Origin: a virus | IMG/VR virus record: IMGVR_UViG_3300008113_004357 | Span: 1 to 64,000 of that record | Length of the DNA: 64,000 nucleotides | Strand: one strand, 5' to 3' | Shown: positions 12,932 to 36,132 of the stretch, piece after piece | How positions within the stretch are numbered: position 1 is the first letter of the stretch | Layout of the letters: the number at the start of each line of letters is the position of its first letter | Program-made: the position numbers and the translations under genes | Notes under the pieces: generated by a model | Database searches by the model: none | Seen by the model: the letters and a program-made list of their open reading frames with translations, nothing else | Told to the model about the DNA's origin: nothing

Positions 12932-12948
12932 TTTGGTTGTAGCACCAT

Positions 12949-12977
12949 TTGACAGGGTCTTCGGACCCTGTTATAAT
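12949..12977 (+). promoter_or_regulatory. Consensus sigma70 promoter with a UUCG hairpin as spacer
   Basis: TTGACA (12949-12954), 17 bases, TATAAT (12972-12977): perfect consensus. The spacer and -35 edge form a perfect 8-bp inverted repeat, ACAGGGTC (12952-12959), TTCG loop, GACCCTGT (12964-12971). In RNA reading through from upstream this makes a very stable UUCG-capped hairpin, possibly a terminator or mRNA 3' end for the MoxR transcript, while in DNA the same bases are the spacer of the next promoter. No U-run follows, so intrinsic termination is uncertain. Confidence 0.85.
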
Positions 12978-13003
12978 ATATACTATATAAACAGGAGCAA
13001 ATT

Positions 13004-14173
13004 ATGACTCAACTAGATCCAGTCATCGACAAAATTGTAGTAGCCCGTGTTGGACTACTTCTTCGTCATCCATTTTTTGGCAACATGGCTACTCGTCTTA
13101 AGATTGAGGAAGCTAGCGATTGGTGCATGACTGCCGCCACAGACGGGCGTCACTTGTATTTTAATCGTGAGTTTTTTGAAAAGATGAGTGTTAAAGAAGT
13201 TGAGTTTGTTGTAGCTCACGAAATCTTACACAATGTATTTGAACACATGTTAAGGGTTGAAGGTCGCGATCCACGTATTTGGAATGCCGCGGCAGACTTT
13301 AGCGTTAACGGTACTCTTGTTCGTGATCGAATTGGCGACAGTCCTAAAGGCATTAAAATTTTCCACGATGCTAAACACTACGGCAAAAGCACTGAACAAA
13401 TCTATGACGAAATTTTTAACGACATGGATGAGCAAGAACTTGCCGCATTGGGCCAACTACTAGACGAACACATTGACTGGGAAAAGGACGGCAAAGATGG
13501 ACGTCCTCAGTACAGCAAAGATGAACTTAAAAAGATTCGTGATGAGATCAAAGAACAGATGATGCAGGCTGCTCAGGCTGCGGGTGCGGGAAATACGCCT
13601 GCTGAGATCCAGCGTATGATCCGTGAACTCACTGAGCCCAAGATGAACTGGCGTGAAATTCTGCGTCAGCAAATTCAAAGTACTATTAAAAACGATTACA
13701 CCTTTATGCGTCCTAATCGTAAGGCATGGCATATGAATGCTATTTTGCCAGGTACTAACTTTGATGAGACCATTGATATTTGTATTGCTATTGACATGTC
13801 AGGCTCTATCGGAGACGACCAGGCTAAAGATTTTATTTCAGAAATCAAAGGCATTATGGATGAATACAAAGACTATAAGATTAAATTATGGTGCTTTGAT
13901 ACCAAAGTCTATAACGAGGCTGACTTCGATGGCTACGGTGATGACATTATGGAATACGAAGTAATGGGCGGTGGTGGCACTGAGTTTGATGCCAACTGGG
14001 AATACATGAAAGAACACGATATTAACCCTAAAAAGTTTATCATGTTTACAGACGGTTACCCTTGGGGTTCATGGGGTGATGAGAACTACTGTGATACAGT
14101 ATTCATTATCCACGGCAACGATAAAATTGTTCCGCCATTTGGTGCTTATGCTTATTACGAGTCAAAGAATTAA
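13004..14173 (+). CDS. VWA-like metallopeptidase-domain protein (DUF2201 type)
   Basis: 389 residues in two domains. The N-terminal domain carries HEILH (72-76) in the context EVEFVVAHEILHNVFEH, a zincin HExxH site, followed by AAADFSVN. The C-terminal domain has ICIAIDMSGSIGDD (about 257-270), the D-x-S-x-S MIDAS motif of a von Willebrand A fold, and later VMGGGGTEFD and MFTDGYPW for the T and D ligands. Such proteins pair with MoxR ATPases, encoded directly upstream. They may process or remodel a host target; the peptidase activity is predicted, not shown. An AGGAG ribosome-binding site precedes the ATG. Confidence 0.88.
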   Translation: MTQLDPVIDKIVVARVGLLLRHPFFGNMATRLKIEEASDWCMTAATDGRHLYFNREFFEKMSVKEVEFVVAHEILHNVFEHMLRVEGRDPRIWNAAADFSVNGTLVRDRIGDSPKGIKIFHDAKHYGKSTEQIYDEIFNDMDEQELAALGQLLDEHIDWEKDGKDGRPQYSKDELKKIRDEIKEQMMQAAQAAGAGNTPAEIQRMIRELTEPKMNWREILRQQIQSTIKNDYTFMRPNRKAWHMNAILPGTNFDETIDICIAIDMSGSIGDDQAKDFISEIKGIMDEYKDYKIKLWCFDTKVYNEADFDGYGDDIMEYEVMGGGGTEFDANWEYMKEHDINPKKFIMFTDGYPWGSWGDENYCDTVFIIHGNDKIVPPFGAYAYYESKN

Positions 14174-16594: not shown

Positions 16595-17484
16595 TGGAGA
16601 ACATTATCTGATTTCCTTGTTATATTGAAATCAAATGTTTTAAACCACTTACTTTGAATAGCTGTTAACGGTTCATCATCTATAGGGAGCTCATGCTTAA
16701 TGAGATTCCCTATTTTTTTGGCCAGTGCTAGTGGGTCTTCATTTTTAACTTTATCATAAAAGAAAGTATTGAGATAATCAAAGTCTCGAACATTAATAAA
16801 ATCCCAATCAGTAAAATGTGTCATGTAACAACCCTGACGAGCTCCTAGTATACTCCAAATGCCGTTTGATACATCTGCGCCTACCATTGACCAAATTCCT
16901 AATCGTTGGTAGTTACCTGGCCATACATCTTTTAATTGATTAACTCGTTGACCCTGTTCAAGTGACATCTTGACGCCTTCACGAAAGCCAGCTCTCCATG
17001 CTTGTAGTGGACTGCCGTTATTATGTATTTGACTAAAGGCTTTGTCTAAAGGCAAATATTCTAAATCCCAGCAAAAGTCTATTTGGCTTTTTACATTGTC
17101 ATTAGGAGCAGCTTCATGTGTTTGCATGTTAAGGACAACGTGCTTCGGCCAGCATTTAATGCCGCCATTGCCGTACATAAGTCCGTTGATAATATTATAA
17201 CTAGGCCAACTTACTACACAATTATCAAAATTAACATCTTCAGGTACTTCAATTACTTGATTAAGAAACTTTCCTGTAAGTACATTGTCACCGTCAATGG
17301 TGACAAATCTGTTTGTTTCAGATAAGTTTGCGGCAGCTTTATGAGCAGCATCACTGCCTTTAACACCGTGAACACGTTTTGCCCAAGGTATCTTTGAACA
17401 AAGATCTGCATAGTTACGATCAGCATCTGGCTCATCGTAACTGATATAGATTACATCATATTCACTTACTGTTATTTTTTTCAT
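16552..17484 (-). CDS. Glycosyltransferase-like protein of the VHGVKGSDAAH family
   Basis: 310 residues. DVIYISYDEPDADRNYADL at the N-terminus, then AKRVHGVKGSDAAHKAAA and RFVTIDGDNVLTG with a D-x-D-N motif, indicates a GT-A-like nucleotide-sugar binding fold. The second half contains a conserved MYGNGGIKCWPK and QAWRAGFREGVKMSLEQGQ. It is a close paralogue of the gene at 37501 and of the C-terminal domain of the giant repeat protein immediately upstream, with which it overlaps by 23 bases. Probably transfers a sugar; donor and acceptor are unknown. Last gene of the leftward run; its stop overlaps thyX tail to tail. Confidence 0.78.
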   Translation of the reverse strand: MKKITVSEYDVIYISYDEPDADRNYADLCSKIPWAKRVHGVKGSDAAHKAAANLSETNRFVTIDGDNVLTGKFLNQVIEVPEDVNFDNCVVSWPSYNIINGLMYGNGGIKCWPKHVVLNMQTHEAAPNDNVKSQIDFCWDLEYLPLDKAFSQIHNNGSPLQAWRAGFREGVKMSLEQGQRVNQLKDVWPGNYQRLGIWSMVGADVSNGIWSILGARQGCYMTHFTDWDFINVRDFDYLNTFFYDKVKNEDPLALAKKIGNLIKHELPIDDEPLTAIQSKWFKTFDFNITRKSDNVLHYNDLDSGNTSAIT

Positions 17485-20400
17485 TTAAGAATTGCTCGTA
17501 TAACCAATCAAAGTCGTTGATCTTAAATAAGTTGTCAGGATTTTCTGTGGCAAACTTACGTCCGGCGAGTGCGCCTTTTATGGCAAATTCACCGTAGGGT
17601 TTATCTGCTCCTTGTGTACACCACACATTTAGACGTTCTTCTGTTTCACTATCTACTTGACGATCAATAGTTTTACCTGCTAGTTTAGCACATTCACGGA
17701 ACGCTGACTTCCATGTTGAAAATTCATCAGTGTTAAAGGAAGTAACGTTACTGACAACTTGTACTGGTTTAAATTTATCGCTGATGCTAGTTGTCATATC
17801 AGGACGAGTTACATCCATACTCAATGTAAGTTGACGAGGTAACAGTTTAACACCACCATAACCGTAGACTAGATTATTAACAGGGTTTTGACTGCGCCAT
17901 ACATGAACTGTATCTCTTTCCCATACAGGTATTTCATAATCAAACTTGAAGTCATCAACTACAACTGCGTCACCATCAACTACCCAGAAGTTATCTGTAT
18001 CTGCCTGTTCGGCTGCTTTGATGTGAGCTTGATGAATGCCTTTAACTCCGTGTACACGTTTGACCCTTGGATACAGCGTTTTAACTCTGTCAAAGTTTTC
18101 ATCAGCATTACTTTCGTTATAACTAATAAACACAATGTCATATGGTTTAACTTTACTAGCTGTAATATTCCATTCTTTACGCTCAACTAGATAACGGAAA
18201 GTAATTTCCTTTTCACTTACAGGGGCATGTTTACTCATCAGGTTAATACCATTATAGTTTTCTTCGCCTCTAAATAAGTGTTTAAAACTGTGATTCATAT
18301 TTCTATCATAGGTATTATGATGACTGAAATAAGTGTCAAATGTAAATGTATCTAATACTTGAACTTCTTTTGGTACTACCCAGAACATGTCTGTAGTAGA
18401 CTCTTCAAGAGCAACTAGATAATCTCTATAAGTGCTTACTGTAAACTTATCAAATTGTTTTGGATTACTTGCTATTGTTTCAATTTCTTTTTTCTCTATA
18501 AAGAATCTTGTTTTAAATTCTCTTTCAGAGATTTGTTCTTCTTTTGAAAATAAACAAATGCCGTCCCAATGTTCACCATTCTTAAAAATATGTGTAACAT
18601 GTTGATTGTAACGAGGAACATAATAATCAAAGTTAAAATCTTCAACAACTTCTACATCTGGCCAGACGCACCAGAACATGTTAGACTCAGATAGTTTACA
18701 AGCTTGTTCGTAGTCCTTGTATGTTGAAATATTAAATTTATCAAACATTTTAGGCGTGCTAGCAACTTCGTCCCATTCCTTACGATCTGAAATGTGTCTA
18801 AATTTAAATTCTTTTTCAGAAATTAATTTTTTCTTGCTGGCAAGAATGACACCGTCATATGTGTCTCCGTTGAGGAACATATGATTTTCTTCTCTTTCGT
18901 AGCTGTTGTGGTAGCTGAAGTAAACATCAAACTTAAATTCATCAGATACAATTACGTCACTAGGAACTATCCAGAATAGATCAGTATCTGATTTTTCAAC
19001 TGCATCCATGTATTCATTGTAGCTGTCAATGTAAAATATATCGTATTTCTTTGGATAACTTGCGACTAATTCAACTATTATTTCTTTATCAGCAAAGAAT
19101 CTATATCTAAATTCTTTTTCAGAAACAAGTACTTCGGTTGAAAATAAACAAATACCGTCATAATGTTTGCTATTCTTAAACACATGAGTTAAGTGTTGAT
19201 TATAACGAGGCACATAGTAATCAAAGTCAAAATCTTCAACAACTTCTACATCATGCCATACACACCAGAACATCTTTGATGTTGAATTTTTTACAGCATT
19301 AAGATAATCGTCATAGGTTTTTATATTAAAGAATCTACTAAATTCTTTTGGTCTACTTGCAAGAACTTCCCACTCTTTTCTGTCGCTTAAAAATCTATAT
19401 TTGAATTCTTTTTCGCTTATGGATTTAAACTTACTGGCAAGTATAATTCCGTCATATGTATCTCCGTTGAGGAACATATGATTTTCTTCTCGTTCGTAGC
19501 TGTTGTGATAACTGAAATAAAGATCAAACTTAAATTCTTCAGCAGTAATAACATCGCTAGGAACTATCCAGAATAGATCAGTATTTGAGTTCTCAACTGC
19601 ATCAATGTATTCATTGTAGCTGTCAATGTAAAATATATCGTATTTCTTTGGATAACTTGCTAGGTAGTCAATTTCTTTCTTTTCTGTAAAGAATCTGTAC
19701 TTGAATTCTTTTTCGCTTACCTGTGAAGTTTTGCTGAATAAACAAATACCATCAAAATGATCTCCGTTCTTAAAAACGTGTGTAATGTGTTGATTGTATC
19801 GAGGTACATAGTAATCAAAGTCAAAATCTTCTACAACGTCTACATCATGCCATATGCACCAAAACATATTGCTTTTAGATTCTTTGCAAGCATTAAGATA
19901 CTGTTCATACGTTTTAATATAAAATTTATCAAACTCTTGTGGTATACTTACAAGTGTATCCCATTCTTTTCTTTCATTTAAGAATCTATATCTAAATTCT
20001 TTTTCACTTATAGGTCTAAACTTACTGGCAAGAATAACACCGTCATATGTATCTCCGTTAAGGAACATATGATTTTCTTGTCGACTATAGGTGTCATGGT
20101 GGCTAAAATAAAGATCAAACTTGTAGTCATTAACTACTGTAACGTCACTAGGTATTAACCAGAGCAAGTCTGTAATAGAAGATTGAACAGCATTTAAATA
20201 TTCATCGTATGTGTTAACATAAAATATATCATAATTTTTAGGATAGCTGATAGTATAGTCAACTTCTTTTTTGTCAGTAAAGAATCTGTACTTAAATTCT
20301 TTTTCACTTACTTTAGTGTGCTTACTAAACAGACAAACACCGTCATAGTACTCGCCGTTTTTAAAAATATGAGTAATATGTTGATTATAACGAGGAACAT

Positions 20401-22072
20401 AATATTCAAAGTCAAAATCTTCTACAACATCAATGTCGGGCCATATTGCCCAGAACATATCAGTTGTTGACTGTTCACAGGCTGTGAGATATTCTTCAAA
20501 AGAACTTATATTAAAAATTTCAAACTTAACCGGCGTACTTACTAATAACTCTTCTTCTTTTTTCTCAATGACAAATTTATTATCAAATTCCTTTTTAGAA
20601 ATTTCTAAAGATTTTGGAGTTAATAATACTCCGTCATAGAAATCACCGTTAAGAAAAGCATGATGTACAGATCTATCAAAGACATTGTCATGAGTATAAT
20701 AAACATCAAATTTAAAATCATCTTTGAGATTAATACCGGAAGGTATAATATAAAACAGTTCTGTTCTTGATTTTGATTTAGCTTCTAAATATTGCTCGTA
20801 AGAATCAACATAAAATTTATCGTACTGGCAGGGAACACTGGCTAAAAGATCCCATTCTTTACGCTCGACAATATATCTATGTTCTATTTCTTTGGCGCTA
20901 ACTGGCTTGTACTTACTTAATAAGAAGATACCGTTATATAATTTGTCATTATTAACTAGGTGTACAAATGCGTGATTTTCTTGTCGTTCGTAGGCATTAT
21001 GATATGTAATGTATAGATCAAATTTAAAATCATCGACTACTTTTAAGTTAGGACTAGTCATCCAAAACAAATCTGTAGTCGACTGCTTTACTGCTTCTAA
21101 ATATTGATCATACGTTTCTATTTCAAAAATATCGTATGATTTTGGAACGCTGGCAACATAATCAACTTCTTTTTTGTCAGTGAAGAATCTATATTTAAAT
21201 TCTTTTTCAGTTACTTTGTTGTGTTTACTAAACAGACAAAGTCCATCATAATATTCTCCATTTTTAAATACATGGGTAACATTCTGATTATAACGAGGTG
21301 CATAGTAATCAAAAGTAAAATCTTCTAAAAGTTCTATGTCATACCATATTGCCCAGAACATATTTGTTGTTGAATTTTCGCAGGCAGCAAGATAATCGTC
21401 GTAGGTTTTTATATTAAACTTTTCAAACTCTTTAGGACGACTTGCAAGAATTTCCCATTCTTTTTTGTCGCTTAAGAATCTATATCTAAATTCTTTTTCA
21501 CTTATAGGTTTAAATTTTGATGCTAAAATGATTCCGTCATATGTATCTCCGTTAAGGAACATATGATTTTCTTGTCTCTCATAACTATTATGATGACTAA
21601 AATACAGATCAAATTTAAATTCTTCAACGACTGTAACATCGCTAGGAACTATCCAAAACAAATCAGTGGTTGCATTTTCCAGTGCGTTGATATATTCTTC
21701 ATAGGTATCTATGTAAAAAATATCGTACTGTTTAGGAATACTTGCTACTAAATCAATTTCTTTTTTATCAGTAAAGAATCTATATTTGATTTCTTTATCG
21801 CTAATATACTTGTGGCGGGGGACCAAAGACAATCCGTCAAAGTATTCGTTATTTTTAAAAATATGCACATAGTCTTCGTCCCATTTAGGGATTGAATAAG
21901 AAGAAAAATCAAAATCGTCTTTTAGTTCTATGTCGTCCCACACTGTCCAGAACATAGAAGTAAGAGCTTTTGATTTAGCTTCGTCGAAGTTTTTGGCTTT
22001 TTTAGCAAACGGATATTTTGATTTAATGACTTTCCAATTTGGATTATTTCCAATAACAAAAATATCGTACAT
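17462..22072 (-). CDS. 1,536-residue protein of 13 glycosyltransferase-derived repeats plus a full C-terminal domain
   Basis: The protein is almost entirely repeats. Residues 1-1310 hold 13 modules of 97-115 residues; 1311-1536 form a complete domain homologous to the genes at 16552 and 37501 (YDIVFISYNESNADENF, RVKRVHGVKG, FWVVDGDAVVVDDFKFD). Modules alternate between two types. Type I reads FW-x-x-W-x-D ... YYVPRYNQHITHVFKNG ... DGICLFSK; type II reads LFWIVPSDV ... YFSHHNSYER ... NHMFLNGDTYDG ... ILASK. Each aligns to residues around the DGD of the C-terminal domain, with DGD changed to PSD or WxD, so the modules probably keep the fold but not catalysis. No signal peptide or membrane segment. 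Possible roles: a multivalent glycan-binding array, a scaffold or a processive polymerase. I know of no described protein of this design. Confidence 0.85.
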   Translation of the reverse strand: MYDIFVIGNNPNWKVIKSKYPFAKKAKNFDEAKSKALTSMFWTVWDDIELKDDFDFSSYSIPKWDEDYVHIFKNNEYFDGLSLVPRHKYISDKEIKYRFFTDKKEIDLVASIPKQYDIFYIDTYEEYINALENATTDLFWIVPSDVTVVEEFKFDLYFSHHNSYERQENHMFLNGDTYDGIILASKFKPISEKEFRYRFLSDKKEWEILASRPKEFEKFNIKTYDDYLAACENSTTNMFWAIWYDIELLEDFTFDYYAPRYNQNVTHVFKNGEYYDGLCLFSKHNKVTEKEFKYRFFTDKKEVDYVASVPKSYDIFEIETYDQYLEAVKQSTTDLFWMTSPNLKVVDDFKFDLYITYHNAYERQENHAFVHLVNNDKLYNGIFLLSKYKPVSAKEIEHRYIVERKEWDLLASVPCQYDKFYVDSYEQYLEAKSKSRTELFYIIPSGINLKDDFKFDVYYTHDNVFDRSVHHAFLNGDFYDGVLLTPKSLEISKKEFDNKFVIEKKEEELLVSTPVKFEIFNISSFEEYLTACEQSTTDMFWAIWPDIDVVEDFDFEYYVPRYNQHITHIFKNGEYYDGVCLFSKHTKVSEKEFKYRFFTDKKEVDYTISYPKNYDIFYVNTYDEYLNAVQSSITDLLWLIPSDVTVVNDYKFDLYFSHHDTYSRQENHMFLNGDTYDGVILASKFRPISEKEFRYRFLNERKEWDTLVSIPQEFDKFYIKTYEQYLNACKESKSNMFWCIWHDVDVVEDFDFDYYVPRYNQHITHVFKNGDHFDGICLFSKTSQVSEKEFKYRFFTEKKEIDYLASYPKKYDIFYIDSYNEYIDAVENSNTDLFWIVPSDVITAEEFKFDLYFSYHNSYEREENHMFLNGDTYDGIILASKFKSISEKEFKYRFLSDRKEWEVLASRPKEFSRFFNIKTYDDYLNAVKNSTSKMFWCVWHDVEVVEDFDFDYYVPRYNQHLTHVFKNSKHYDGICLFSTEVLVSEKEFRYRFFADKEIIVELVASYPKKYDIFYIDSYNEYMDAVEKSDTDLFWIVPSDVIVSDEFKFDVYFSYHNSYEREENHMFLNGDTYDGVILASKKKLISEKEFKFRHISDRKEWDEVASTPKMFDKFNISTYKDYEQACKLSESNMFWCVWPDVEVVEDFNFDYYVPRYNQHVTHIFKNGEHWDGICLFSKEEQISEREFKTRFFIEKKEIETIASNPKQFDKFTVSTYRDYLVALEESTTDMFWVVPKEVQVLDTFTFDTYFSHHNTYDRNMNHSFKHLFRGEENYNGINLMSKHAPVSEKEITFRYLVERKEWNITASKVKPYDIVFISYNESNADENFDRVKTLYPRVKRVHGVKGIHQAHIKAAEQADTDNFWVVDGDAVVVDDFKFDYEIPVWERDTVHVWRSQNPVNNLVYGYGGVKLLPRQLTLSMDVTRPDMTTSISDKFKPVQVVSNVTSFNTDEFSTWKSAFRECAKLAGKTIDRQVDSETEERLNVWCTQGADKPYGEFAIKGALAGRKFATENPDNLFKINDFDWLYEQFLNEKNNSK
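18143..22072 (-). repeat. Tandem array of 13 coding modules, about 597-nt super-period
   Basis: Module residue limits are 1-115 (I), 116-215 (II), 216-312 (I), 313-416 (II), 417-516 (II), 517-613 (I), 614-713 (II), 714-810 (I), 811-910 (II), 911-1009 (I), 1010-1109 (II), 1110-1206 (I), 1207-1310 (II). A type I-type II pair spans about 197-199 residues. At DNA level a 56-base block at 19008-19063 recurs exactly at 19605-19660 and a 28-base block at 18960 recurs at 19557, both 597 bases apart, showing recent duplication or conversion of whole pairs. Confidence 0.9.
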
Positions 22073-22078
22073 ATCATT

Positions 22079-22810
22079 CTACCATGTAATAAACTTATAT
22101 AGCTCTTTTGCGTAGAGCTCGTGAGGTTTTTCTCCGTGATGCCAATATTTTGCTAAAGAATTCTGATGACCTTCTCGCTGGTACTTGAGATAAAAAGAGT
22201 TATTTGAATTATCAAAATCCATATATCGAGAACCGTCTATTAACTTTAAGTAAAAATCAGTCCATCGATCTCGTTTGACAAAGTGCATGGTATTACACAT
22301 GACATACTGAATACCCATTGACTTAAAATAAGACTGTAGTTGATGTACAAGATTTAAACTTTGAATTTCTAAATATGACTGATTTGATGCCATGAACTTT
22401 TGATAAAATGGTATTAATCTTTTTTCCCAATCTGAATTTCCATTAAAGCCAGGATTTAATCTATAGAATACATTATTAGTATTTCCAAACCAAGAATTAG
22501 TTTCAGATATAATATATTTTGTTCCTAATTCTGACGGTATCTCCATACGCACACTTTCGGTCCATGCTACGCAGACAAATAGGTCCATACTTTCAGGATC
22601 ATATTCTCTATGCATCCATTCTAATATTGATCTAGCTATAGTAGGGTTAGCCGATCCTGGAGAAGAAATATTAATAGGTCTATACCCTAGCATCTCAGCT
22701 AATATGTTTCCAAATGATTTGCTTCTATTAAAATCAGAATCTAATTGCCCATCTATCTCTGATCCCGATGCGTGGCTGCATCCAGAGATTAACATTACTT
22801 TCTCTTTCAT
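22079..22810 (-). CDS. SGNH/GDSL-like hydrolase
   Basis: 243 residues. LISGCSHASGSE near the N-terminus (Ser12 in G-C-S-H) is the nucleophile block. NISSPGSANPTIARSILEW gives the Gly/Asn blocks, and KYWHHGEKPHELYAKEL near the C-terminus supplies the catalytic His. SGNH enzymes include O-acetylesterases and acyltransferases that act on polysaccharides, so it could trim or acylate the glycan made by neighbouring glycosyltransferases. There is no signal peptide, so action would be cytoplasmic unless released at lysis. Overlaps the upstream gene by four bases. Confidence 0.75.
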   Translation of the reverse strand: MKEKVMLISGCSHASGSEIDGQLDSDFNRSKSFGNILAEMLGYRPINISSPGSANPTIARSILEWMHREYDPESMDLFVCVAWTESVRMEIPSELGTKYIISETNSWFGNTNNVFYRLNPGFNGNSDWEKRLIPFYQKFMASNQSYLEIQSLNLVHQLQSYFKSMGIQYVMCNTMHFVKRDRWTDFYLKLIDGSRYMDFDNSNNSFYLKYQREGHQNSLAKYWHHGEKPHELYAKELYKFITW

Positions 22811-24063
22811 TTTACTAACCTTTGAACAGTTTTAAAAGTTGTTTTAGACAATAAACATTGATAATTATGATCTAATATTGATTGCATTTGATCGTACATG
22901 TCACGCAGTTCGTTAATAGATTTAGAATTTATATAATTTATAAGATTTAAAATTTTAATAGTTCGTACTTCATGATTAGATTCTTCATCATAACTTTCAT
23001 CCCAGAAATCGCTAAATGTTTTAAATCCCATCCTTTTAGCATATTCTAAAGTGTACGGTGGTGCTACTAATATAAATGGTTTTTTATATCTTATAGCTTG
23101 ATATAATTTTTCACTGTAATTTCCACAATGTTGCGCGAAACGTGTTTCATTAATTACATCACAAAAACTATCATTATAAAAATCTCCCAGTGGATTTAAT
23201 TTAAAATTATTAATAGCAGGGGTTTCATAATTATCATAGCTTTCTGTTATAGGATAATAAGATGGATTTTCATTGTTTATATCAACAGCATTAGTTGCTT
23301 TAATATCTAAACAAACAGGAGAATGATAATTTAAAATTTCAAATCCAGACATTAGTTGTTCGTATAATTCTTTATTTGTTTTTTTCCAATTGTGTATTGG
23401 AAAAAATAAATCATGTGCAAATGCTTGACCATTGCAATTAAAATACCAACTGTAGTTAGAAGAAACTGTTGATAAAAATGCTGTAATTAGATGACGGTGT
23501 TTTGTATATCTCCAATTTACACAAATAAACTTTTTAGTAAATTTGTTGTTAGGAAAACTTTCAAATAACGAGTAATTTTTTAAAAACAAATCATTTGTTA
23601 CTAGTTTCATTATTTTAGTGTAATGTGGATGATAGTAGGCTACCTTATAATCGCAAGTATTCACTATTACTCTTTTTAATCCATTACGTATAACATACTC
23701 TTTAATGCTGTCTAATTCGTCAGCTCTTATTTCGTTTAGATTTGTTTCAAAAGGAAACTCGCTGTAGAATCCTCTATTATGATGATAATTCTCCCTACGA
23801 GAACAAATAGGCTCATATAAGAAAAAATATAAACCCAATCTATTCATAGTTTCCACATCACTGGCACTATGATTAATATTTTTTAATCCTGTCAATTCCC
23901 CGTTACCCATATAGACAAAAACAGGAATATGAGGAGCTAGGCCGGAAGAATTTCTAACTTGGGTCATGAATACATTTGCATCTGTTTCAGGGCGATTTTT
24001 CATGCCAGGAATACTAAACCAATGTAACTGAGTCAATTCGTGATCTGGCGGATTAGAGCTCAT
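22807..24063 (-). CDS. Glycosyltransferase-like protein, SEK/KPF paralogue family (copy 1)
   Basis: 418 residues. The C-terminal part has NYSEKLYQAIRYKKPFILVA, GFKTFSDFWDESYDEESNHE and LDHNYQCLLSKTTF. The middle has FICVNWRYTKHRHLITAFLS. The same layout (x-N-x-R-x-x-H-R-x-x-L then S-E-K-x-F/L ... P-F-I-L ... G-x-K-T-F) occurs in the genes at 28401 and 31542. The E-x-x-x-x-x-S-E-K ... P region resembles the donor-binding end of GT-B/exostosin-like transferases. Sugar and acceptor unknown. Overlaps the oxygenase gene by 11 bases. Confidence 0.68.
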   Translation of the reverse strand: MSSNPPDHELTQLHWFSIPGMKNRPETDANVFMTQVRNSSGLAPHIPVFVYMGNGELTGLKNINHSASDVETMNRLGLYFFLYEPICSRRENYHHNRGFYSEFPFETNLNEIRADELDSIKEYVIRNGLKRVIVNTCDYKVAYYHPHYTKIMKLVTNDLFLKNYSLFESFPNNKFTKKFICVNWRYTKHRHLITAFLSTVSSNYSWYFNCNGQAFAHDLFFPIHNWKKTNKELYEQLMSGFEILNYHSPVCLDIKATNAVDINNENPSYYPITESYDNYETPAINNFKLNPLGDFYNDSFCDVINETRFAQHCGNYSEKLYQAIRYKKPFILVAPPYTLEYAKRMGFKTFSDFWDESYDEESNHEVRTIKILNLINYINSKSINELRDMYDQMQSILDHNYQCLLSKTTFKTVQRLVK

Positions 24064-24559
24064 TAAGTTCTCCTGTAATTTGAAGTGTGTACCTATCTGC
24101 TATTCCAATATTACTAGCTGCATGGGGAACATCGTACTGCCAGAAAAAATAATCTCCTGCTTTCCAATTTACATAACCAACATCTGCTATTTCTAAATAA
24201 TGTCCAGGTTTCCAATCTTCTAACATGATTAACACTCTACACACATTACTTGGAACTGCGTTAAATAATTTAGTGTAAGTTCTAAAATGATCTGTGTGCA
24301 TGGGCATTATTTCTAAAGTACTCATTTTATAAAAATTATAGGTTTGATTTTTTAGACCGAACATATTATTAAATTTTTGTACCCAGTCTGGTAAAAGATT
24401 TTTACTGTCGTACATTGATCCTGTAAAACTTTTTACATAGTCGTAACCCTTTTCTTTCCATTGAGAAACTTCTTGTTCAGTAACTGGTTGTTTAATATAT
24501 GAAAAAGTTCTATAACTGTGATCCCAAAAAGGATTAACATGACCGGTATAAAAATTCAT
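24053..24559 (-). CDS. 2-oxoglutarate/Fe(II)-dependent oxygenase-like protein
   Basis: 168 residues. H88-x-D90 (PMHTDHF), H146 (DVPHAASN) and R156 (ADRYTLQ) form the H-x-D...H...R pattern of the double-stranded beta-helix oxygenases, with strands RVLIMLEDWKPGHYLEI and AGDYFFW between. Would hydroxylate an amino acid, nucleoside or sugar-linked amine using 2-oxoglutarate and O2. Placed between an amidinotransferase and a glycosyltransferase-like gene with 4- and 11-base overlaps, so it probably acts in the same pathway. Distinguished from a simple cupin by the HxD spacing and the late Arg. Confidence 0.78.
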   Translation of the reverse strand: MNFYTGHVNPFWDHSYRTFSYIKQPVTEQEVSQWKEKGYDYVKSFTGSMYDSKNLLPDWVQKFNNMFGLKNQTYNFYKMSTLEIMPMHTDHFRTYTKLFNAVPSNVCRVLIMLEDWKPGHYLEIADVGYVNWKAGDYFFWQYDVPHAASNIGIADRYTLQITGELNEL

Positions 24560-25530
24560 GTGTGTTTCCTTTTTATATCAAGAGTAACGCAGTGAAATCC
24601 ACCACCTAGTGTACGCTGTTGTCGCATAGGCAACATAGCACTATCAATATTATACTTTTCTAATTCTTTACGTAAATTATCTTGATTTTCTTCTAATGCT
24701 ACTAGATTAGGATTGACACTAAACAAGTTCATATTGATCCAAGTGCTGGCATTACAATAACCTGGATAGTGTCCAATATCTACAGGCTCAGGGCACCAAA
24801 TATAATCCCAGCTTTGTAACGGTTTAGGCAATTGATCAATGCTCTTAATTCTACTAGGATTTAACAGCATTAGCCCTTCACGTAATAGACAAATAGTACT
24901 GTCAAGATGCATATAACTATACACACCCTCGATAGTCCAAACTTTTTTATTTGGCATTAGTTCTTGAAGATATTCAGCACCTTTCTTGTTACCACTGTTG
25001 CTGACTAGATAATATAAGTTGTCGTTATCTCTTAATATATTAGCAGCATCAAATGCAGGTTCTGTTTCATTAAGTGCTAGTGTATCAGGATCGCCGAGAC
25101 AATTTAAATTGTATAAACTTTCATCGTATGAACACTTGGTAATCGTTACATAATTATTTTCAAAATGTTCTTGTAGGGCATAATATTCGTTATGTCTTGC
25201 TTTTAACGGCTGAGGAGTTGATAAGATTAGATTGTCATGTACTAACACTCCGTCTCTAGGACAATAGTTATAATAACTAGGAACAACATTTTTATTTGGT
25301 CTCAATACAGACACATTACAAGATTTTAAAAACTCAACAAATTTTTCTAAATCTTCGTTGGCTTCGTTGATAACTTGTTGAGGATAAGGTCCAACTAAAA
25401 TTTCATCAATATTTTTTACATCTGCATAATTAACAGTTCGCAAACTAGTATCAATAGCAGGAATTTTAGCGTCATCTGCAACGCCAACTATAACTGTTTC
25501 TAATGGATCCCATTCGTTCTTACTTAACAT
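24556..25530 (-). CDS. Arginine:glycine amidinotransferase-like enzyme
   Basis: 324 residues of the guanidino-modifying superfamily. NEWDPLETVIVG opens the fold, CPRDGVLVHDN (90-100) contacts substrate, EPAFDAAN (158-164) carries Asp161, YSYMHLDSTICLL (205-216) carries His208 and Asp210, and TLGGGFHCVTLDIKR (308-321) carries the nucleophile Cys314. A full triad suggests an active amidinotransferase moving the amidino group from arginine to an amine, although agmatine/arginine deiminase activity is possible. The upstream neighbour is a StrS-like aminotransferase. The same enzyme pair builds guanidino groups on aminocyclitols in streptomycin biosynthesis. Confidence 0.85.
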   Translation of the reverse strand: MLSKNEWDPLETVIVGVADDAKIPAIDTSLRTVNYADVKNIDEILVGPYPQQVINEANEDLEKFVEFLKSCNVSVLRPNKNVVPSYYNYCPRDGVLVHDNLILSTPQPLKARHNEYYALQEHFENNYVTITKCSYDESLYNLNCLGDPDTLALNETEPAFDAANILRDNDNLYYLVSNSGNKKGAEYLQELMPNKKVWTIEGVYSYMHLDSTICLLREGLMLLNPSRIKSIDQLPKPLQSWDYIWCPEPVDIGHYPGYCNASTWINMNLFSVNPNLVALEENQDNLRKELEKYNIDSAMLPMRQQRTLGGGFHCVTLDIKRKHT

Positions 25531-26110
25531 TAAACACTCTCATTTTACTAATGTCAGGATAATCTTTATCACTCCAACATTTTGGTTTTAAATCTTTTAT
25601 TTGTTCAAATCGTTGTATCCCTAACTCTGCAGATTCAGGTGTCATATAATAATGATATCCTAACAGATCAACATCTTGTTCTTTCCACAGTACGTCGGGC
25701 AATCTACCATCATAGCTCATTTTTTTTAAAATATTAGCAGCTTCTTGGTTGTCAGTTAAAATCATTCCGCCGCGGCCCAAATTAAGATGCTTTCTAAATT
25801 GAAAACTCAAACACATAAATGTGCCAGGAATATAACTATCTTTTTTCCATAAGACTGCTGCATCAATGATATTTGTATTACCAATAAAATAATAGTCTTG
25901 CCATTGCGATTCAACAAACTCCCACGACAGTCCTAGTTTTTCAAATGTCATTGGTATAGATAGATATGTGTGTGCAGGGCAAGTTACTGACTTGGGAGTT
26001 GTGTAACGCAAGCAAAGTTCTACGGCATGAGTACAACTGTCTGTTGCAACTGCATACTCAGAACCAAAATAGTTTGCGATAATATTTTCAAAGTCAGTTA
26101 CTGGAGACAT
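25520..26110 (-). CDS. Miniature DegT/DnrJ/EryC1/StrS aminotransferase
   Basis: 196 residues. FENIIANYFGSEYAVATDSC and THAVELCLR match the PLP-fold entry of the DegT family, CPAHTYLSI the substrate loop, DAAVLW the PLP-pyridine Asp, and CLSFQFRKHLNLGRGGM (100-116) the internal PLP Lys107. Typical members have 360-400 residues; this one stops after YYMTPESAELGIQRFEQ and lacks most of the C-terminal domain, though that final helix is the normal family segment. It may be a minimal enzyme or need a partner. Would transfer an amino group to a keto sugar or cyclitol. Overlaps both neighbours by 11-17 bases. Confidence 0.8.
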   Translation of the reverse strand: MSPVTDFENIIANYFGSEYAVATDSCTHAVELCLRYTTPKSVTCPAHTYLSIPMTFEKLGLSWEFVESQWQDYYFIGNTNIIDAAVLWKKDSYIPGTFMCLSFQFRKHLNLGRGGMILTDNQEAANILKKMSYDGRLPDVLWKEQDVDLLGYHYYMTPESAELGIQRFEQIKDLKPKCWSDKDYPDISKMRVFNVK

Positions 26111-28400: not shown

Positions 28401-29531
28401 CTAAACATTTACTGTGTCTAAACGATAACACGTTTTTTCCATCAATACTTGATAATTATGATCAAGAATTTCTTTGACAGCTTTCTGCCATTCAATCCAT
28501 TGGCTATCGCTGAATTCGCACAACCTTAAAACTTCTTTCCAAATCATGTCCAGTCGTGCATGATCGTCAATTTCATTATCGTAACTTTCGTCTATTAAGG
28601 GATCAAATGTTTTGTATCCTAATTTTTTTAAATGCTGCAATGAAAAGGGTCTTGACGCTAAAATGAAAGGGTGTTTTAATGCAATTGGCCTAAATGTTTT
28701 TTCTGTTAAAAATATAGAATCCCTAGCATCTATATACGGAAAAAAGTCATTGTGCTCTTTGAAAAACAGAGTTTCAGTAACCAAACTAAAATAACTGTCA
28801 TTGTGATAGTGTATATCGTCAAGTCGTACATCAATTGGATTGTATCTATCATCAGGGACATTAAGGCGAAGCGGGAATATGTCTTGGTATCTCGTAAATA
28901 ATTTACGCATTCTTTTATATTTCTGCGAATTACCTATACGATTTATCACATCTATACCATATTCAAAAGACGAATAAGTTTTTTCTAAAAGATTACTGTC
29001 AAGTATTTTGTAAAAAAGAAGTACTCTGTGTTCCCTTAACTGTTTGTTAAGACAACAAAATAATTTAGATTTTTTTTGAATTAAGTATTCAATTGTTGGA
29101 TGATTAGTTTCACGATAGAAAACAGAAAGATTTTCTTTCATTACATTTTCAAAAACACTACTGCAACAAATCTCAAGTAATGGTTCTATATTTTGTTCTA
29201 AACAATAGTTTTGATATACTTCTTTTCCATTTTGTGCTGAGGTCAGATATATGTAAGAAACGCTGTAATCATTTATTTGTCTAATAATTCTATGAATTTT
29301 TCTTATATGATCAAAGTAAACTGCTTCATTAACATTGTCAAATAAAATTCTTTTATATCCAGCACTGATTGCCGATTTGATAGAATCTATTATTGGATCT
29401 GTTTCTATTTTAGGAAAGGGATAATTGAAATATGTTCCAGCATAAACATAGAAAGTCTTGCTGTCTATCTCGCCAATAACTTCTGTTAAAAATTTAATGC
29501 TTAAATCAATTTTACTTTGTTCTAAAATTAA
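28401..29531 (-). CDS. Glycosyltransferase-like protein, SEK/KPF family (copy 2), no standard start codon
   Basis: The frame is open from the A10 run that ends the upstream dehydrogenase. The first ATG in frame is at 29141, giving 246 residues, yet the 130 codons before it match the paralogue at 31542: DNVNEAVYFDHI against NNSHEAFHSVVDGI, and CLNKQLREHRVLL against NLNRRWRFHRPAL. From 29531 it is 376 residues, like the 379-residue paralogue. The C-terminus has FLTEKTFRPIALKHPFILAS and GYKTFDPLIDESYDNEID. No ATG, GTG or TTG precedes 29141, so it is made by -1 frameshift fusion, by ATT initiation (29528 or later), or the sequence has an indel. Sugar specificity unknown. Confidence 0.65.
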   Translation of the reverse strand, partial: LILEQSKIDLSIKFLTEVIGEIDSKTFYVYAGTYFNYPFPKIETDPIIDSIKSAISAGYKRILFDNVNEAVYFDHIRKIHRIIRQINDYSVSYIYLTSAQNGKEVYQNYCLEQNIEPLLEICCSSVFENVMKENLSVFYRETNHPTIEYLIQKKSKLFCCLNKQLREHRVLLFYKILDSNLLEKTYSSFEYGIDVINRIGNSQKYKRMRKLFTRYQDIFPLRLNVPDDRYNPIDVRLDDIHYHNDSYFSLVTETLFFKEHNDFFPYIDARDSIFLTEKTFRPIALKHPFILASRPFSLQHLKKLGYKTFDPLIDESYDNEIDDHARLDMIWKEVLRLCEFSDSQWIEWQKAVKEILDHNYQVLMEKTCYRLDTVNV

Positions 29532-30721
29532 TTTTTTTTTTGGCGAGAATTGCCGTAGTGTATTAATTCAAAATTGGCACCATCTACAGTTTGCAATTTG
29601 CGCCACGGGTCTATTACAATAGATCCATTAGGGAATTCTACATATTTTACCCATTCTTCCCAGTAACCAATGAGATATACTTCAGTCCACTCAGATTTTA
29701 AATCTAAATCGCCTGTGTTTTTATCATAATAATTTACATTGCCACCTAGCTGTTCAATGTAATGGCCTACTAATAAACTGGGGCTTCCGATAGTATAATG
29801 TACACCCGGTTTGTATGCTTTACCTACTATGGTAACATTTTTACCTTGAGAGATACATTTTTTAGCAATGCGTTCAGATTGTACTTCTCTAGCTGTCATA
29901 ATAGCATCGAATAAATCATACCCCAGGTCAAGCTTGTCAGCTAGATATCTTAATGCTATGTTATCTCTTGGATGGCATGCGCCGCCATCACCGAGTCCTG
30001 CTGTCATATATGCAGGCCCCATAATACGATAAGAACTTTTTGCCAATGCATTAGTGACAACATCAACATTGATATTTCCATTTGTTTCTGCAACATCTTG
30101 TATCATATTAACCAGTGCTAGTTTTGTACTGATAAAAGTATTGTAAAAGATTTTAATGCTTTCTGCTTCGTCCCAAGTCCCAACTTCATACCGTGGGTTA
30201 TTTTTCATAAGAGGGTTATAAAAATCAATTAACTCTTGTGCATCACCAGTTAAACTGCCGTCTTCTGTACCTATGATAACCATTTCAGGATTAATCATAT
30301 CATACTTAACTGTACCCATGGCAATAAGATACGGATTATAGATAAAACGAGCATTAGTTATTAAGGGCTCTAATTGAGATCTTACAGTACCTGGTAAAAC
30401 TGTACTGATTAAAACAACTAGTTGTTTTTTGTTAACATGTCTATTAACTTCTTGTAAAATATTCTTAACAATAGTGTAATCAAAATCTTTATTTGGTAAA
30501 TGACTTGTCGGTGTTTCGCCGCCGTACATAGGGTCATGTGGTGTAGGTGCCGCAATAAAAATAAAATTGCTGTCTTCTACTGCATCTTTTATTGAAGACA
30601 TCATAGGAAAAGCAGGCGATCTAGGCTCAACGTCATAGCCTACTACTTGGTAGTGTTCTGCCATTACTTCGGCGCAATCTTGCCCAAGTTTTCCAACACC
30701 AATCATAGCAACTTTAGTCAT
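29528..30721 (-). CDS. UDP-glucose/GDP-mannose 6-dehydrogenase, full length
   Basis: 397 residues with all three family domains. MIGVGKLGQDCAEVM (6-20) is the NAD-binding motif, VLISTVLPGTV and EAESIKIFYNTFISTK form the centre, and GLGDGGACHPRDN (242-254) carries the catalytic Cys249. VTIVGKAYKPGVHYTIGSPS, after about residue 295, is the C-terminal nucleotide-binding domain. Oxidises an NDP-hexose to NDP-uronate, giving an acidic sugar for the local glycosyltransferases. Start preceded by AGGAAT. The gene ends in RQKKN encoded by an A10 run; see the frameshift site. Confidence 0.88.
   Translation of the reverse strand: MTKVAMIGVGKLGQDCAEVMAEHYQVVGYDVEPRSPAFPMMSSIKDAVEDSNFIFIAAPTPHDPMYGGETPTSHLPNKDFDYTIVKNILQEVNRHVNKKQLVVLISTVLPGTVRSQLEPLITNARFIYNPYLIAMGTVKYDMINPEMVIIGTEDGSLTGDAQELIDFYNPLMKNNPRYEVGTWDEAESIKIFYNTFISTKLALVNMIQDVAETNGNINVDVVTNALAKSSYRIMGPAYMTAGLGDGGACHPRDNIALRYLADKLDLGYDLFDAIMTAREVQSERIAKKCISQGKNVTIVGKAYKPGVHYTIGSPSLLVGHYIEQLGGNVNYYDKNTGDLDLKSEWTEVYLIGYWEEWVKYVEFPNGSIVIDPWRKLQTVDGANFELIHYGNSRQKKN
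29532..29541 (-). other. A10 run: candidate -1 ribosomal frameshift site
   Basis: Ten consecutive A (minus strand) sit five bases before the end of the dehydrogenase gene. In its frame they read C-AA AAA AAA AA-T TAA, containing the canonical slippery heptamer A AAA AAA. A -1 slip leads into KLILEQSKIDLS, the downstream glycosyltransferase-like frame, which has no normal start codon. A homopolymer-length sequencing error would give the same picture. Confidence 0.5.
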
Positions 30722-32681: not shown

Positions 32682-33647
32682 TTAAATCATTTCAAATTTA
32701 GGAATTATAATATCTGTTCCGCAATGGCAATGTTCTTTACCGCACATAATCTTTTTAGGACCAACTGCACTAATATCTTGCAATATATGACCAATTTTGT
32801 CGCCTTGGCCGCAACTGGCTAAACTTACATCACCTGACGGATTTATAAAGATTGAGTCTCCAACACTACATATCCAATCTTTAAAAAAGTTTTGGCCGTT
32901 AACAATAATCTCATTACTATTAGTCGGAGATTTTGTTCCGTCAGAATATCTATTATAACTTACTGCTTTACTTTCTTTGCGAGGTTTATTAATAGTAAAA
33001 TTCATTTCTACATTATGTTCATCAATAAACTTTTTCTTTTCAGGATCTTTGTATTCCCACGGTCCAGCGTTAACACTCATTTCATCAAACAACGGAGTCC
33101 ATTCAATAAAATAGTTAGGCATTACAGTTTTCAAATGCTCGCCATATTCTACAACTTCCCAAAATCTTTCTTCGTGCATTAACATTTTTGTACAAAGGTA
33201 ATTTACTTTATCGCAGAGAAAAATGTTGTTTTCTTTATATTTTTCTTTGTCAGAAAATTCTACATGAAAACTAGCTACTATGTCATCAAAGAGGTGATAA
33301 TGTTTTTCCCACCAGGCCAAAGGTCTACTGAGGTTAGTATTAACTGCTAGGGTGCAATTAGGCAACTGTTCTCTTAACCATTCGCAAATGGGAATAAAAT
33401 TTTTCCACGCAGTTGGTTCTCCGCCGCTAAAGAAAAACTTATAATGTTTGTACCCAACACTTTTATACCTATCAATAATAATTTTAAGATTTTTTAAATA
33501 GACATCTAAATTATCGTCATTGCGAAAATTTCCTCCCCAGTTGCCGGGATTACAATAACTACATTTAAAATTACAAAAATTATTAACTTGCCATGTAACC
33601 GCTAGATAAGGCTCAGGAGCAAATATAGATATTAATTTTTTGCCCAT
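32682..33647 (-). CDS. Radical SAM enzyme with SPASM-like C-terminus
   Basis: 321 residues. C25-x3-C29-x2-C32 (NNFCNFKCSYCNP) binds the 4Fe-4S cluster, FFFSGGEPTAWKNFI is the SAM GGEP motif, and LAVNTNLSRPL the next strand. The C-terminus has cysteines DWICSVGD, ASCGQG and MCGKEHCHCGTD, suggesting one auxiliary SPASM/twitch cluster. Such enzymes modify peptides, sugars or cyclitols. Gene order places it between a glycosyltransferase-like gene and three N-twitch radical SAM genes, overlapping the latter by 16 bases. Confidence 0.88.
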   Translation of the reverse strand: MGKKLISIFAPEPYLAVTWQVNNFCNFKCSYCNPGNWGGNFRNDDNLDVYLKNLKIIIDRYKSVGYKHYKFFFSGGEPTAWKNFIPICEWLREQLPNCTLAVNTNLSRPLAWWEKHYHLFDDIVASFHVEFSDKEKYKENNIFLCDKVNYLCTKMLMHEERFWEVVEYGEHLKTVMPNYFIEWTPLFDEMSVNAGPWEYKDPEKKKFIDEHNVEMNFTINKPRKESKAVSYNRYSDGTKSPTNSNEIIVNGQNFFKDWICSVGDSIFINPSGDVSLASCGQGDKIGHILQDISAVGPKKIMCGKEHCHCGTDIIIPKFEMI

Positions 33648-34891
33648 CTATAGACCTCTTTAAGTTCTGGAATAACATCTAAAATACTTTCGTTGCGAGC
33701 GGCGTCTAACTCGTCATTAAATTTAATAAACTCTTGTATACCACCTTTGTTAGGATCTCCGCTTTTTAAATTTTGACTTATCATTTTAAACCCGTTGCTA
33801 ATCTCAGGATTATACGAATACTTGTGAATGTATTCTCGATATAATCTACCTAACTTTTCTTTTGAGAATTCAGGGAGAATCATAATATTGGAATACCAAG
33901 GACTGGTAGCAAGATTAAATCTAGGCACAGTATTCTTGTCAATTAGTTCGTTGTCGATCAAGTAGTCAAAGAATTTAGGAAATTGAAATACGTTCCAAAT
34001 ACTAATAGTAGGAGTTATTTGGAACTGTGCGTGGGGTACTAGTTCTTTTAGTTCTCTTAAGTTTTTCTCTATCCTATCCCAATCAGTACCTTTACGAATT
34101 AATTCGCTATGTGGTCCCATGCCGTCTAGGCTAGCCCAAATAATTAAGTTAGGAAATTTTTTCCAATAATCAATTAAGTCTTTATCTTTAAACTTAAGGC
34201 TGCTAAAGTTTGTTGTATAACTTAACTCAATAGTTTCATTTATACCATTTTCAATCCAGTAGTCTAAACACTCATAATGTTCTGGAGTGATAATAATTTC
34301 GCCGCCTGCAAAATATACTTCAACTACATCTTTAAGGTACGGTTTTAATTTAGTCATTAACACTTGATCATCGTTGTTACTAACTACCATTTTAGTCATG
34401 TTAAAATGTTTGTTTAAAACTTCAACACCTTTTTGGTCAATAAATTCCTGTGCCCATTGACTAGAACAGCTTGGTCCGCAACTACGACATTTCATATTGC
34501 AGAGATTACTAAAACGAATGTCCATGTACTTTAACTTAAATTCGTTTAAACTTCCATCGTCATTAGTGTCCTCAACTGTGTCAACAAAATCAAGTCCTCT
34601 GCGTCTGTTATGACTTTGTCTCATAGTCCACGTGCCTAATTTTTCGAGATCGTAGCATCGTTGGCATGCTTCAACTGGTTCGTCATTGAGCATGTTTAAT
34701 CGCATTTTCTTATACTCTTCACTGTTCATCATTTCAAGTATAGATTCATTTGATTTGATTTCACCTACTGGTTTATTACTGTCAGCTACACAGCATGGCA
34801 ACACCCTGCGATCTGGCCAGGCATGAAAATGAATCCAAGGAAGGATACAAAAGTGTTTTCCATTTTCAACAAGCTCTGTTACGTTTTTCAT
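33632..34891 (-). CDS. N-twitch radical SAM enzyme (copy 1)
   Basis: 419 residues. The N-terminal auxiliary domain has HFCILPWIHFHAWPDRRVLP then CC (33-34) and C76-x2-C79. The radical SAM site is C131-x3-C135-x2-C138 (SNLCNMKCRSCGP), and YFAGGEIIITPEHYE is the SAM strand. The auxiliary cluster sits before, not after, the radical SAM core, an architecture known as N-terminal twitch. Its substrates are not established. LIIWASLDGMGPHSELIRKG follows. Three paralogues in tandem suggest successive reactions on related substrates. Two bases separate it from the next copy upstream. Confidence 0.85.
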   Translation of the reverse strand: MKNVTELVENGKHFCILPWIHFHAWPDRRVLPCCVADSNKPVGEIKSNESILEMMNSEEYKKMRLNMLNDEPVEACQRCYDLEKLGTWTMRQSHNRRRGLDFVDTVEDTNDDGSLNEFKLKYMDIRFSNLCNMKCRSCGPSCSSQWAQEFIDQKGVEVLNKHFNMTKMVVSNNDDQVLMTKLKPYLKDVVEVYFAGGEIIITPEHYECLDYWIENGINETIELSYTTNFSSLKFKDKDLIDYWKKFPNLIIWASLDGMGPHSELIRKGTDWDRIEKNLRELKELVPHAQFQITPTISIWNVFQFPKFFDYLIDNELIDKNTVPRFNLATSPWYSNIMILPEFSKEKLGRLYREYIHKYSYNPEISNGFKMISQNLKSGDPNKGGIQEFIKFNDELDAARNESILDVIPELKEVYRWAKN

Positions 34892-34893
34892 TG

Positions 34894-36132
34894 TTACTCC
34901 GTTAGATTCATAAGTCTATTTAATTCTGGGAAAGTTTTAATGAAACTTTCACCTCTAATTTTATCAGTTGACAAGACATGCATAAAAAATGTCTTTTTAT
35001 TTTCATCCCAAGTGTTGCTTTCATCTGCAAATTTTATTGCATCTGTTACAAGATTGTTTAACAGCACCCATTCAGGACCGTTAGAAGATATAAATTTTTC
35101 TGCATTTTCTTTTGCAGCTGCCTTTAAAATTTTTGGCATACTTTTAGCAGAATAATAACTAGGATGAACGGCAAGATATAAACTGTGATACCAGTCGTCC
35201 AATCTTACAATATTTTTTTCCTTAAGATAGTTATAAAAATCTCCAATAGTCAGATAATTGAAAATACTGAATACTGTGTTTATTTGAAAATGTACATAGT
35301 CTAATTGTCTAAAAGTAAGCAGGTTACTTTCAACTTTACCCCAATCTGTACCGTGACGTAACCACTCTGCTCGTTCGCCGTAATGGTCAATTGAACAGCT
35401 TAATTCAACACGTTTAAAATGTTTCCACAAGTCTAGTATGTCATGATTTTTATATTTAATATTGCTGGCATTAGTGTTATAACGTAAAGTTACATCAGTT
35501 CTACCCTTACGAATCATTTCTTCAAGGATAGTGTAGTGCTCATCTGTGATTAAAGGTTCGCCTCCAGCAAAGTAAGCAAGATCGATGTGTTCAATGTGTG
35601 TTAGTACTTCATTAAGCAAATCGCCTTTACCGTCATCGGCATGAATAACTATAGGATGATTAGGATCAAAATTTGCTTTTTGTTCGGCGGCCCATTGACT
35701 GCTAAATTCAGCACCACAGGTTCTACATTTAAAATTACAAATATTACTAAAACGTATGTCGTAATATTTCATTTTAAAATCTGGCATTGTGCCATCTACT
35801 TGTGTTTGTGGCACTAGTTCGTCAAAATCTTTTCCCCAATGTTCTTTGCTATAATTTCTAAAACTGTGAGGACCTGCTTCTTCATGCTTATAACAAAACG
35901 TACAAATTTCACTTTTAGTTTCGTTTAACATGTTAAGACGAATAGTTTTCATCTTGTCGTTATTAAACGCATCTTTTAATGTTGTTTGCTTTGTATTACC
36001 AAATGGAGTAGTATAGTTGTTACTACAGCAAGGGTATATGTCTCCTTTTGGTGTTACATTTAAATGCATCCATGGAAACATGCAAAATACTTTGCTTTCA
36101 TTTAATAAAAAATCTTTATCTATATTGTTCAT
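34894..36132 (-). CDS. N-twitch radical SAM enzyme (copy 2)
   Basis: 412 residues. FCMFPWMHLNVTPKGDIYP and C35-C36 with C77-x2-C80 form the N-terminal twitch cluster; C132-x3-C136-x2-C139 (SNICNFKCRTCG) is the radical SAM site; YFAGGEPLITDEHYTIL has an intact GGEP. VELSCSIDHYGERAEWLRHG follows. The closest paralogue appears to be copy 1. Copies 2 and 3 keep GGEP, whereas copy 1 has GGEI. Overlaps copy 3 by 17 bases. Confidence 0.86.
   Translation of the reverse strand: MNNIDKDFLLNESKVFCMFPWMHLNVTPKGDIYPCCSNNYTTPFGNTKQTTLKDAFNNDKMKTIRLNMLNETKSEICTFCYKHEEAGPHSFRNYSKEHWGKDFDELVPQTQVDGTMPDFKMKYYDIRFSNICNFKCRTCGAEFSSQWAAEQKANFDPNHPIVIHADDGKGDLLNEVLTHIEHIDLAYFAGGEPLITDEHYTILEEMIRKGRTDVTLRYNTNASNIKYKNHDILDLWKHFKRVELSCSIDHYGERAEWLRHGTDWGKVESNLLTFRQLDYVHFQINTVFSIFNYLTIGDFYNYLKEKNIVRLDDWYHSLYLAVHPSYYSAKSMPKILKAAAKENAEKFISSNGPEWVLLNNLVTDAIKFADESNTWDENKKTFFMHVLSTDKIRGESFIKTFPELNRLMNLTE

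Follow-up and report, generated by a model that had tools for sequence, protein, structure and literature searches.

Large aquatic phages carry a pair of adjoining genes whose products probably add a strongly basic guanidine group to a sugar of the phage or of its host. One encodes an arginine amidinotransferase (AMT) and the other a compact pyridoxal phosphate (PLP) aminotransferase, here termed miniAT. Both are enzymes of known kinds, on which the compact aminotransferase and its pairing with AMT are a variation. Enzyme families, catalytic residues and gene coupling are read here from sequence or structure prediction. The DNA analysed (64,000 nucleotides, hereafter the window) is part of a virus record of 67,284 bases, which is itself a fragment. 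In the window, the pair lies inside a cluster of glycosyltransferase and UDP-glucose dehydrogenase (UGD) genes, in the same stretch as a tail-collar protein. The order on the minus strand is B12-radical-SAM protein, miniAT, AMT and 2-oxoglutarate (2OG) oxygenase, with an overlap of a few bases at each junction. The two open reading frames (ORFs) that the original prediction described as overlapping by 11 bases are both present, the shared bases being 25520-25530; AMT and the 2OG oxygenase ORF overlap by 4 bases, and the B12-radical-SAM ORF overlaps the start of miniAT. For AMT, miniAT and the 2OG oxygenase, dN/dS was 0.05-0.18 (computable in 10 of 11 comparisons), indicating purifying selection on all three; the three comparisons giving a value for AMT lie at 0.05-0.09.

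Table 1. Genes of the glycan cluster, in window coordinates, with the basis of each assignment
Product	Position	Strand	Basis
SGNH-like protein, 243 aa	22079..22810	-	motif only
Glycosyltransferase-like protein, 418 aa	22807..24063	-	motif and context
2OG-Fe(II) oxygenase-type protein, 168 aa	24053..24559	-	HxD...H...R residues and predicted fold
AMT, StrB/AGAT-type arginine amidinotransferase, 324 aa	24556..25530	-	StrB 1bwd match, catalytic residues
miniAT, compact DegT/StrS-type PLP aminotransferase, 196 aa	25520..26110	-	Pfam DegT, AlphaFold2 fold
B12-binding radical SAM protein, 751 aa	26094..28349	-	Pfam B12-binding 8.5e-12, Radical_SAM 6.7e-17
Glycosyltransferase-like protein, 246 aa, same cluster as 22807..24063	28401..29141	-	blast cluster 1
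UGD, UDP-glucose/GDP-mannose dehydrogenase	29528..30721	-	Pfam UDPG_MGDP_dh; PHROG 9148, E 2e-100

The nearest solved relative of AMT is StrB (1bwd), the inosamine-phosphate amidinotransferase of streptomycin biosynthesis, which it matches over its full length (E 2e-61, residues 4-321); HsvA, AGAT (6e-31) and SxtG follow. Searched against the PDB, a profile of 21 AMTs scored StrB at 321 bits (E 8e-95), AGAT at 199 (E 1e-57), HsvA at 197 and SxtG at 180, and the matches below E 1e-50 were exclusively amidinotransferases. Pfam and NCBIfam profiles gave no match to AMT, and the single PHROG match was to a family without an assigned function. D93, D161, H208, D210 and C314 are kept in 76/76 phage AMTs and align with D170, D254, H303, D305 and C407 of AGAT; D161, H208 and C314 also align with D179, H227 and C332 of StrB. 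Cys314, His208 and Asp161 had been correctly named as catalytic in the original prediction. AMT shares with StrB the Asp/His/Asp/Cys catalytic residues and the flanking LGGGFHC motif but differs from it just before the catalytic His, where StrB has A-S-T and AMT has S-Y-M (residues 205-207). By profile and catalytic residues, AMT is assigned as an arginine amidinotransferase, which would move the amidino group of arginine to an amine and free ornithine. In such enzymes the amidino group is carried as a covalent thiouronium on the catalytic Cys. Arginine deiminases belong to the same pentein fold class, and AMT might on that ground be a deiminase-like hydrolase serving only to deplete host arginine. 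We consider this very improbable: the profile search returned no deiminase at E <=1, its strong matches are all transferases, and AMT adjoins an aminotransferase.

That aminotransferase is reduced in size. miniAT scores 65.8 bits against Pfam DegT (PF01041), whose cut-off is 19.8. The match falls into two parts, covering profile positions 26-98 and 163-240 of 360; in place of some 64 internal positions miniAT has only 22 residues, and it has no counterpart of the C-terminal 120. The two-domain DegT architecture, 360-400 residues long with a small C-terminal domain, is not found in its 196 residues. K107, which the original prediction had named as the PLP lysine, is aligned with that of GDP-perosamine synthase (the title of structure 3dr4 names a K186A mutant of this enzyme). 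D83, S102 and K107 are invariant in 85/85 aligned members, D83 being, to judge by its motif, the probable PLP Asp. The AlphaFold2 model is confident (pLDDT 96.1, pTM 0.92); its top Foldseek matches in the PDB are GDP-perosamine synthase and ArnB, and full-size sugar aminotransferases can be superposed on 182-192 of the 196 residues with Z 17-20 and rmsd 2.1-2.8 Å. A profile search likewise placed GDP-perosamine synthase first, with the keto-inositol aminotransferases 2c7t, 5w71 and 7b0d weaker. miniAT thus has the fold and PLP lysine of the DegT/StrS sugar aminotransferases (3bn1/3dr4, ArnB, WlaRG) but is half their size, lacks their C-terminal domain and has the middle of the profile compressed. 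The original prediction of a StrS-type aminotransferase holds for the family and not for a full StrS: from its sequence, miniAT is best classed as a compact variant, not a typical member.

A truncated or frameshifted aminotransferase was considered and ruled out, since relatives are of equal length and the record holds no second DegT piece. Relatives in other phages span 194-220 residues (one ORF of 141 residues, at locus L035, is a cut copy outside this range), and no neighbour supplies a full-size DegT protein, none being present in the record. At least 589 relatives were confirmed in viral contigs, and others occur in marine bacteria. In one phage glycan cluster, that of Flavobacterium phage immuto (L055), the compact DegT aminotransferase occurs alongside a full-size one and adjoins a gene annotated as a pilin glycosylation protein. 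No solved precedent for a DegT enzyme of 196 residues appeared among the matches listed, and activity of this form is not certain because the solved DegT enzymes listed have a C-terminal domain that it lacks. The profile positions that are missing would also suit a degenerate or regulatory PLP protein, with AMT using an amino-sugar of host origin. We regard this as improbable in view of the invariant PLP Asp/Ser/Lys, the confident fold, a dN/dS of 0.11-0.15, the hundreds of relatives and, in cells, the pairing with a dehydratase.

Next, we asked how closely the two genes are coupled. miniAT was found in 43 of the 50 AMT records searched whole, and in 31/31 of those of at least 36 kb; the 7 in which it was not found are fragments 5.4-35.4 kb long. 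An independent sample was drawn by UGD, which gave 80 loci, 50 of them analysed. At E below 1e-40, the limit for a strong match, both genes were present in 16 records, AMT alone in 1, miniAT alone in 0 and neither in 33 (Fisher p 3e-12, a value that ignores relatedness); weak matches to miniAT in G117 (4e-4) and to AMT in G128 (1.5e-4) were left uncounted. Ten of the 16 records were already in the AMT set, and without them the counts are 6, 1, 0 and 33. A divergent lineage accounts for five of the 16: its AMT and miniAT are only 42-44% identical to those of the window and yet remain neighbours; one of its members (L233) has UGD, a different 2OG-oxygenase-like ORF (by reading), miniAT and AMT in succession. 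Both genes are also present in a cultured isolate, Synechococcus phage S-SCSM2R (host Synechococcus WH7803), where they are annotated as an inosamine amidinotransferase (AMT) and a 3-amino-5-hydroxybenzoic acid synthase (miniAT) and are surrounded by GT25 and glycosyltransferase genes. Our searches of the open-access literature gave no paper naming this phage.

These results bear on the possibility that AMT makes a small guanidino metabolite for the host (guanidinoacetate, homoarginine or a guanidino-polyamine) and that miniAT is adjacent only through a shared hypervariable region. AGAT and HsvA also match the AMT profile (E ~1e-57), an ocean-virus survey reports a viral gene for guanidinoacetate methyltransferase (PMC11360552), Campylobacter phage AMTs have been named glycine amidinotransferases (PMC2853527), and the 92-kb record with AMT alone (G129) has it beside UGD with no detectable miniAT. 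However, StrB scores far above AGAT and HsvA, and the near-obligate partnership with miniAT would not be expected of an independent metabolite. We therefore judge this explanation unlikely.

To compare the settings of miniAT, we collected 83 loci from AMT or miniAT searches or from fetched phage matches, de-duplicated by miniAT sequence and with at least 3 kb on both sides; 52 have AMT and 31 do not, although 3 of the latter (L117, L125, L152) come from records with an AMT outside the locus. In 29 of the 52, AMT comes immediately after miniAT, overlapping it in 28, and the commonest overlap is 11 bases (13 loci). Four loci (L014, L130, L134, L139) have two different AMT genes each. The two sets differ in their neighbours (Fisher values on these counts ignore relatedness). 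The 2OG protein is found in 31 loci with AMT versus 1 without, the B12-radical-SAM cluster, within 5 kb, in 33 versus 0, and a carbamoyltransferase in 23 versus 0, whereas cupins (1 versus 22), methyltransferases (0 versus 13) and short-chain dehydrogenases (SDRs; 11 versus 24) are distributed the other way. One or both of the 2OG and B12-radical-SAM proteins occur in 51/52 AMT loci; in the exception (L019), the 2OG gene lies slightly outside the 5-kb limit.

Among the other neighbours in the window, the two glycosyltransferase-like ORFs of Table 1 are putative glycosyltransferases. The 418-residue protein is without a Pfam, NCBIfam or PHROG match, and its cluster recurs in 30/52 AMT contexts; the 246-residue protein is longer in many relatives. 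The SGNH-like protein, also unmatched in Pfam, NCBIfam and PHROGs, recurs in 12/52. An O-carbamoyltransferase-type gene is found in 21 of 36 AMT records, with none in the window's own record. In five loci (L009, L011, L012, L026, L074), UGD is apparently fused to its neighbouring glycosyltransferase-like protein in ORFs of 740-1039 residues, hinting that UDP-glucuronate feeds that protein.

In the AMT-free setting, a cassette of cupin, methyltransferase, miniAT and SDR is found in bacterial contigs (15 loci, of which one, L070, has an AMT-like gene) and in many phages. It is conserved in L058-L069 (e.g. L059:7034-9541) as a cupin, a small methyltransferase, miniAT and a GMD-like SDR, in contigs labelled Alphaproteobacteria, Neomarinimicrobiota, Prochlorococcus and others. 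An SDR of this GMD-like cluster immediately follows miniAT in 25 loci; scans of three of them against NCBIfam gmd (GDP-mannose 4,6-dehydratase; cut-off 415) gave 335-371 bits. Some SDR of the GMD Pfam family is present in 33 of 46 records searched, at best 197 bits, a score only roughly comparable with 335-371 because the models differ (Pfam versus NCBIfam gmd). The bacterial cassette is likely a compact perosamine-type pathway in cells. The window's record holds no GMD-family dehydratase, the gene sought as the mark of a GDP-perosamine pathway, which leaves the 2OG enzyme, the B12-radical-SAM enzyme or the host as candidate sources of a keto-sugar.

The two settings also differ within miniAT itself. 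Residue 106, immediately before the PLP lysine, is K, R or H in 61/62 AMT-linked sequences versus 7/33 others, and the L233 miniAT again has a basic residue there. After the distant sequences L055, L056, L070 and L071 were dropped, a phylogenetic test gave only 2 well-supported independent contrasts, and we therefore keep residue 106 as a subfamily signature only. In our reading, one compact enzyme has a different specificity in each context; as speculation, the basic residue might lie opposite an acidic group, for instance a uronate.

The 2OG oxygenase that had been predicted to follow the pair is supported by its iron-binding residues and predicted fold. Pfam, NCBIfam and PHROGs gave no family match for this protein. 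All 38 relatives compared have H88, D90 and H146, and at least 90% have R156. Its AlphaFold2 model (pLDDT 92.7) aligned best to SnoN (Z 14.3, 148/168 residues), with entries within 1 Z counted as tied, and the structural matches among the 50 listed are mostly named 2OG-Fe(II) oxygenases; by Foldseek alone, cupins were also present, one of them ranked first. The HxD...H triad, the Arg and the modelled double-stranded beta-helix support a 2OG-Fe(II) oxygenase.

How, then, might these enzymes work together? A StrB-like AMT with a DegT-type partner in a glycosyltransferase/UGD cluster is best read as amination followed by guanidinylation. miniAT would aminate a keto group through a Schiff base on K107, most likely on a nucleotide-linked keto-sugar; AMT would take the amidino group of arginine as a thiouronium on C314, with H208 and D161, and pass it to that amine with release of ornithine. 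The neighbouring 2OG oxygenase, the B12-radical-SAM enzyme or both would make the keto-sugar or tailor the product, and the neighbouring glycosyltransferases would transfer the guanidino sugar to a surface glycan, either the host O-chain or a virion fibre. This two-step guanidino-sugar module is the best explanation of the locus, and our confidence in it is slightly better than even; against it, AMT could use a free amine instead.

The original prediction had placed the pair in a streptidine-like logic. In its strict form, miniAT would convert a keto-inositol into an aminocyclitol of the scyllo-inosamine type, which would then be the acceptor. No solved relative is nearer to AMT than StrB, keto-inositol aminotransferases are among the weaker profile matches of miniAT, and the host could supply keto-inositol. 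The strict aminocyclitol route includes a GFO/IDH/MocA-type inositol dehydrogenase. Genes of this type were found in 0/36 AMT-bearing records, a further difference from StrB; the best Foldseek and profile matches of miniAT are to GDP-perosamine synthase, a nucleotide-sugar aminotransferase; and close, AMT-free relatives of miniAT directly precede the GMD-like SDR. What stands of the prediction is the StrB-like AMT with a DegT-type aminotransferase in a glycan cluster, while the aminocyclitol pathway itself has little chance of being correct, and the substrate is probably a sugar rather than an inositol.

Campylobacter phages CP220 and CPt10 are reported to have a putative glycine amidinotransferase within a radical-SAM cluster (PMC2853527), which resembles the present locus in combining AMT, radical SAM and sugar-transferase-like genes. 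However, the Campylobacter phage AMT is only ~24% identical to that of the window, and miniAT gave no match in these phages. The hypervariable host-recognition regions of pelagimyophages and cyanomyophages are tail-fibre-linked and contain glycosyltransferases, UDP-glucose 6-dehydrogenase and radical SAM cassettes, and such genes in pelagimyophages are read as O-chain modification; the word aminotransferase is, however, absent from the main text of the paper describing them (PMC7029224). We found no report of phage guanidino sugars in the open-access literature.

Other features of the window were recorded alongside the cluster. A 1536-residue protein at 17462-22072 (-) has long internal repeats and a glycosyltransferase-like 'VDGDA' tail, and many of the phage clusters described above also encode a relative (e.g. 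L233:9712-12276). Four radical SAM proteins, two with SPASM domains, stand in a row at 32682-37504 (-). A second UGD-like ORF (4651-5466 (+), PHROG 9148, 271 residues) lies outside the glycan cluster. GTP cyclohydrolase I and a QueE-like radical SAM protein (5519-6355 (+) and 8028-8900 (+)) suggest 7-deazaguanine DNA modification. At 11840-14173 (+), a VWA/DUF2201 protein is encoded after an AAA (MoxR-like) ATPase, and a single 4423-residue ORF at 50700-63971 (-) adjoins tail genes.

More broadly, we tentatively propose, at somewhat less than even confidence, that aquatic phages have evolved a dedicated and portable pathway for a guanidino sugar, often also carbamoylated, built from a half-size aminotransferase and a StrB-like AMT, with a 2OG or B12-radical-SAM enzyme replacing the 4,6-dehydratase as source of the keto-sugar. 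The presence of a guanidino sugar on a phage glycan would be testable, since cultured phage S-SCSM2R carries both genes; a guanidino modification (CH2N2) shifts mass by +42.022 Da, against +42.011 for acetyl. miniAT is a very small form of sugar aminotransferase and a tractable one for probing what the C-terminal domain is for. If the proposal is true, a guanidino sugar on host LPS or virion fibres would place a permanent positive charge on a surface that other phages and grazers recognise, and surface charge, superinfection exclusion and receptor recognition could change. The chemistry of aminoglycoside antibiotics would then be a phage tool for surface decoration.
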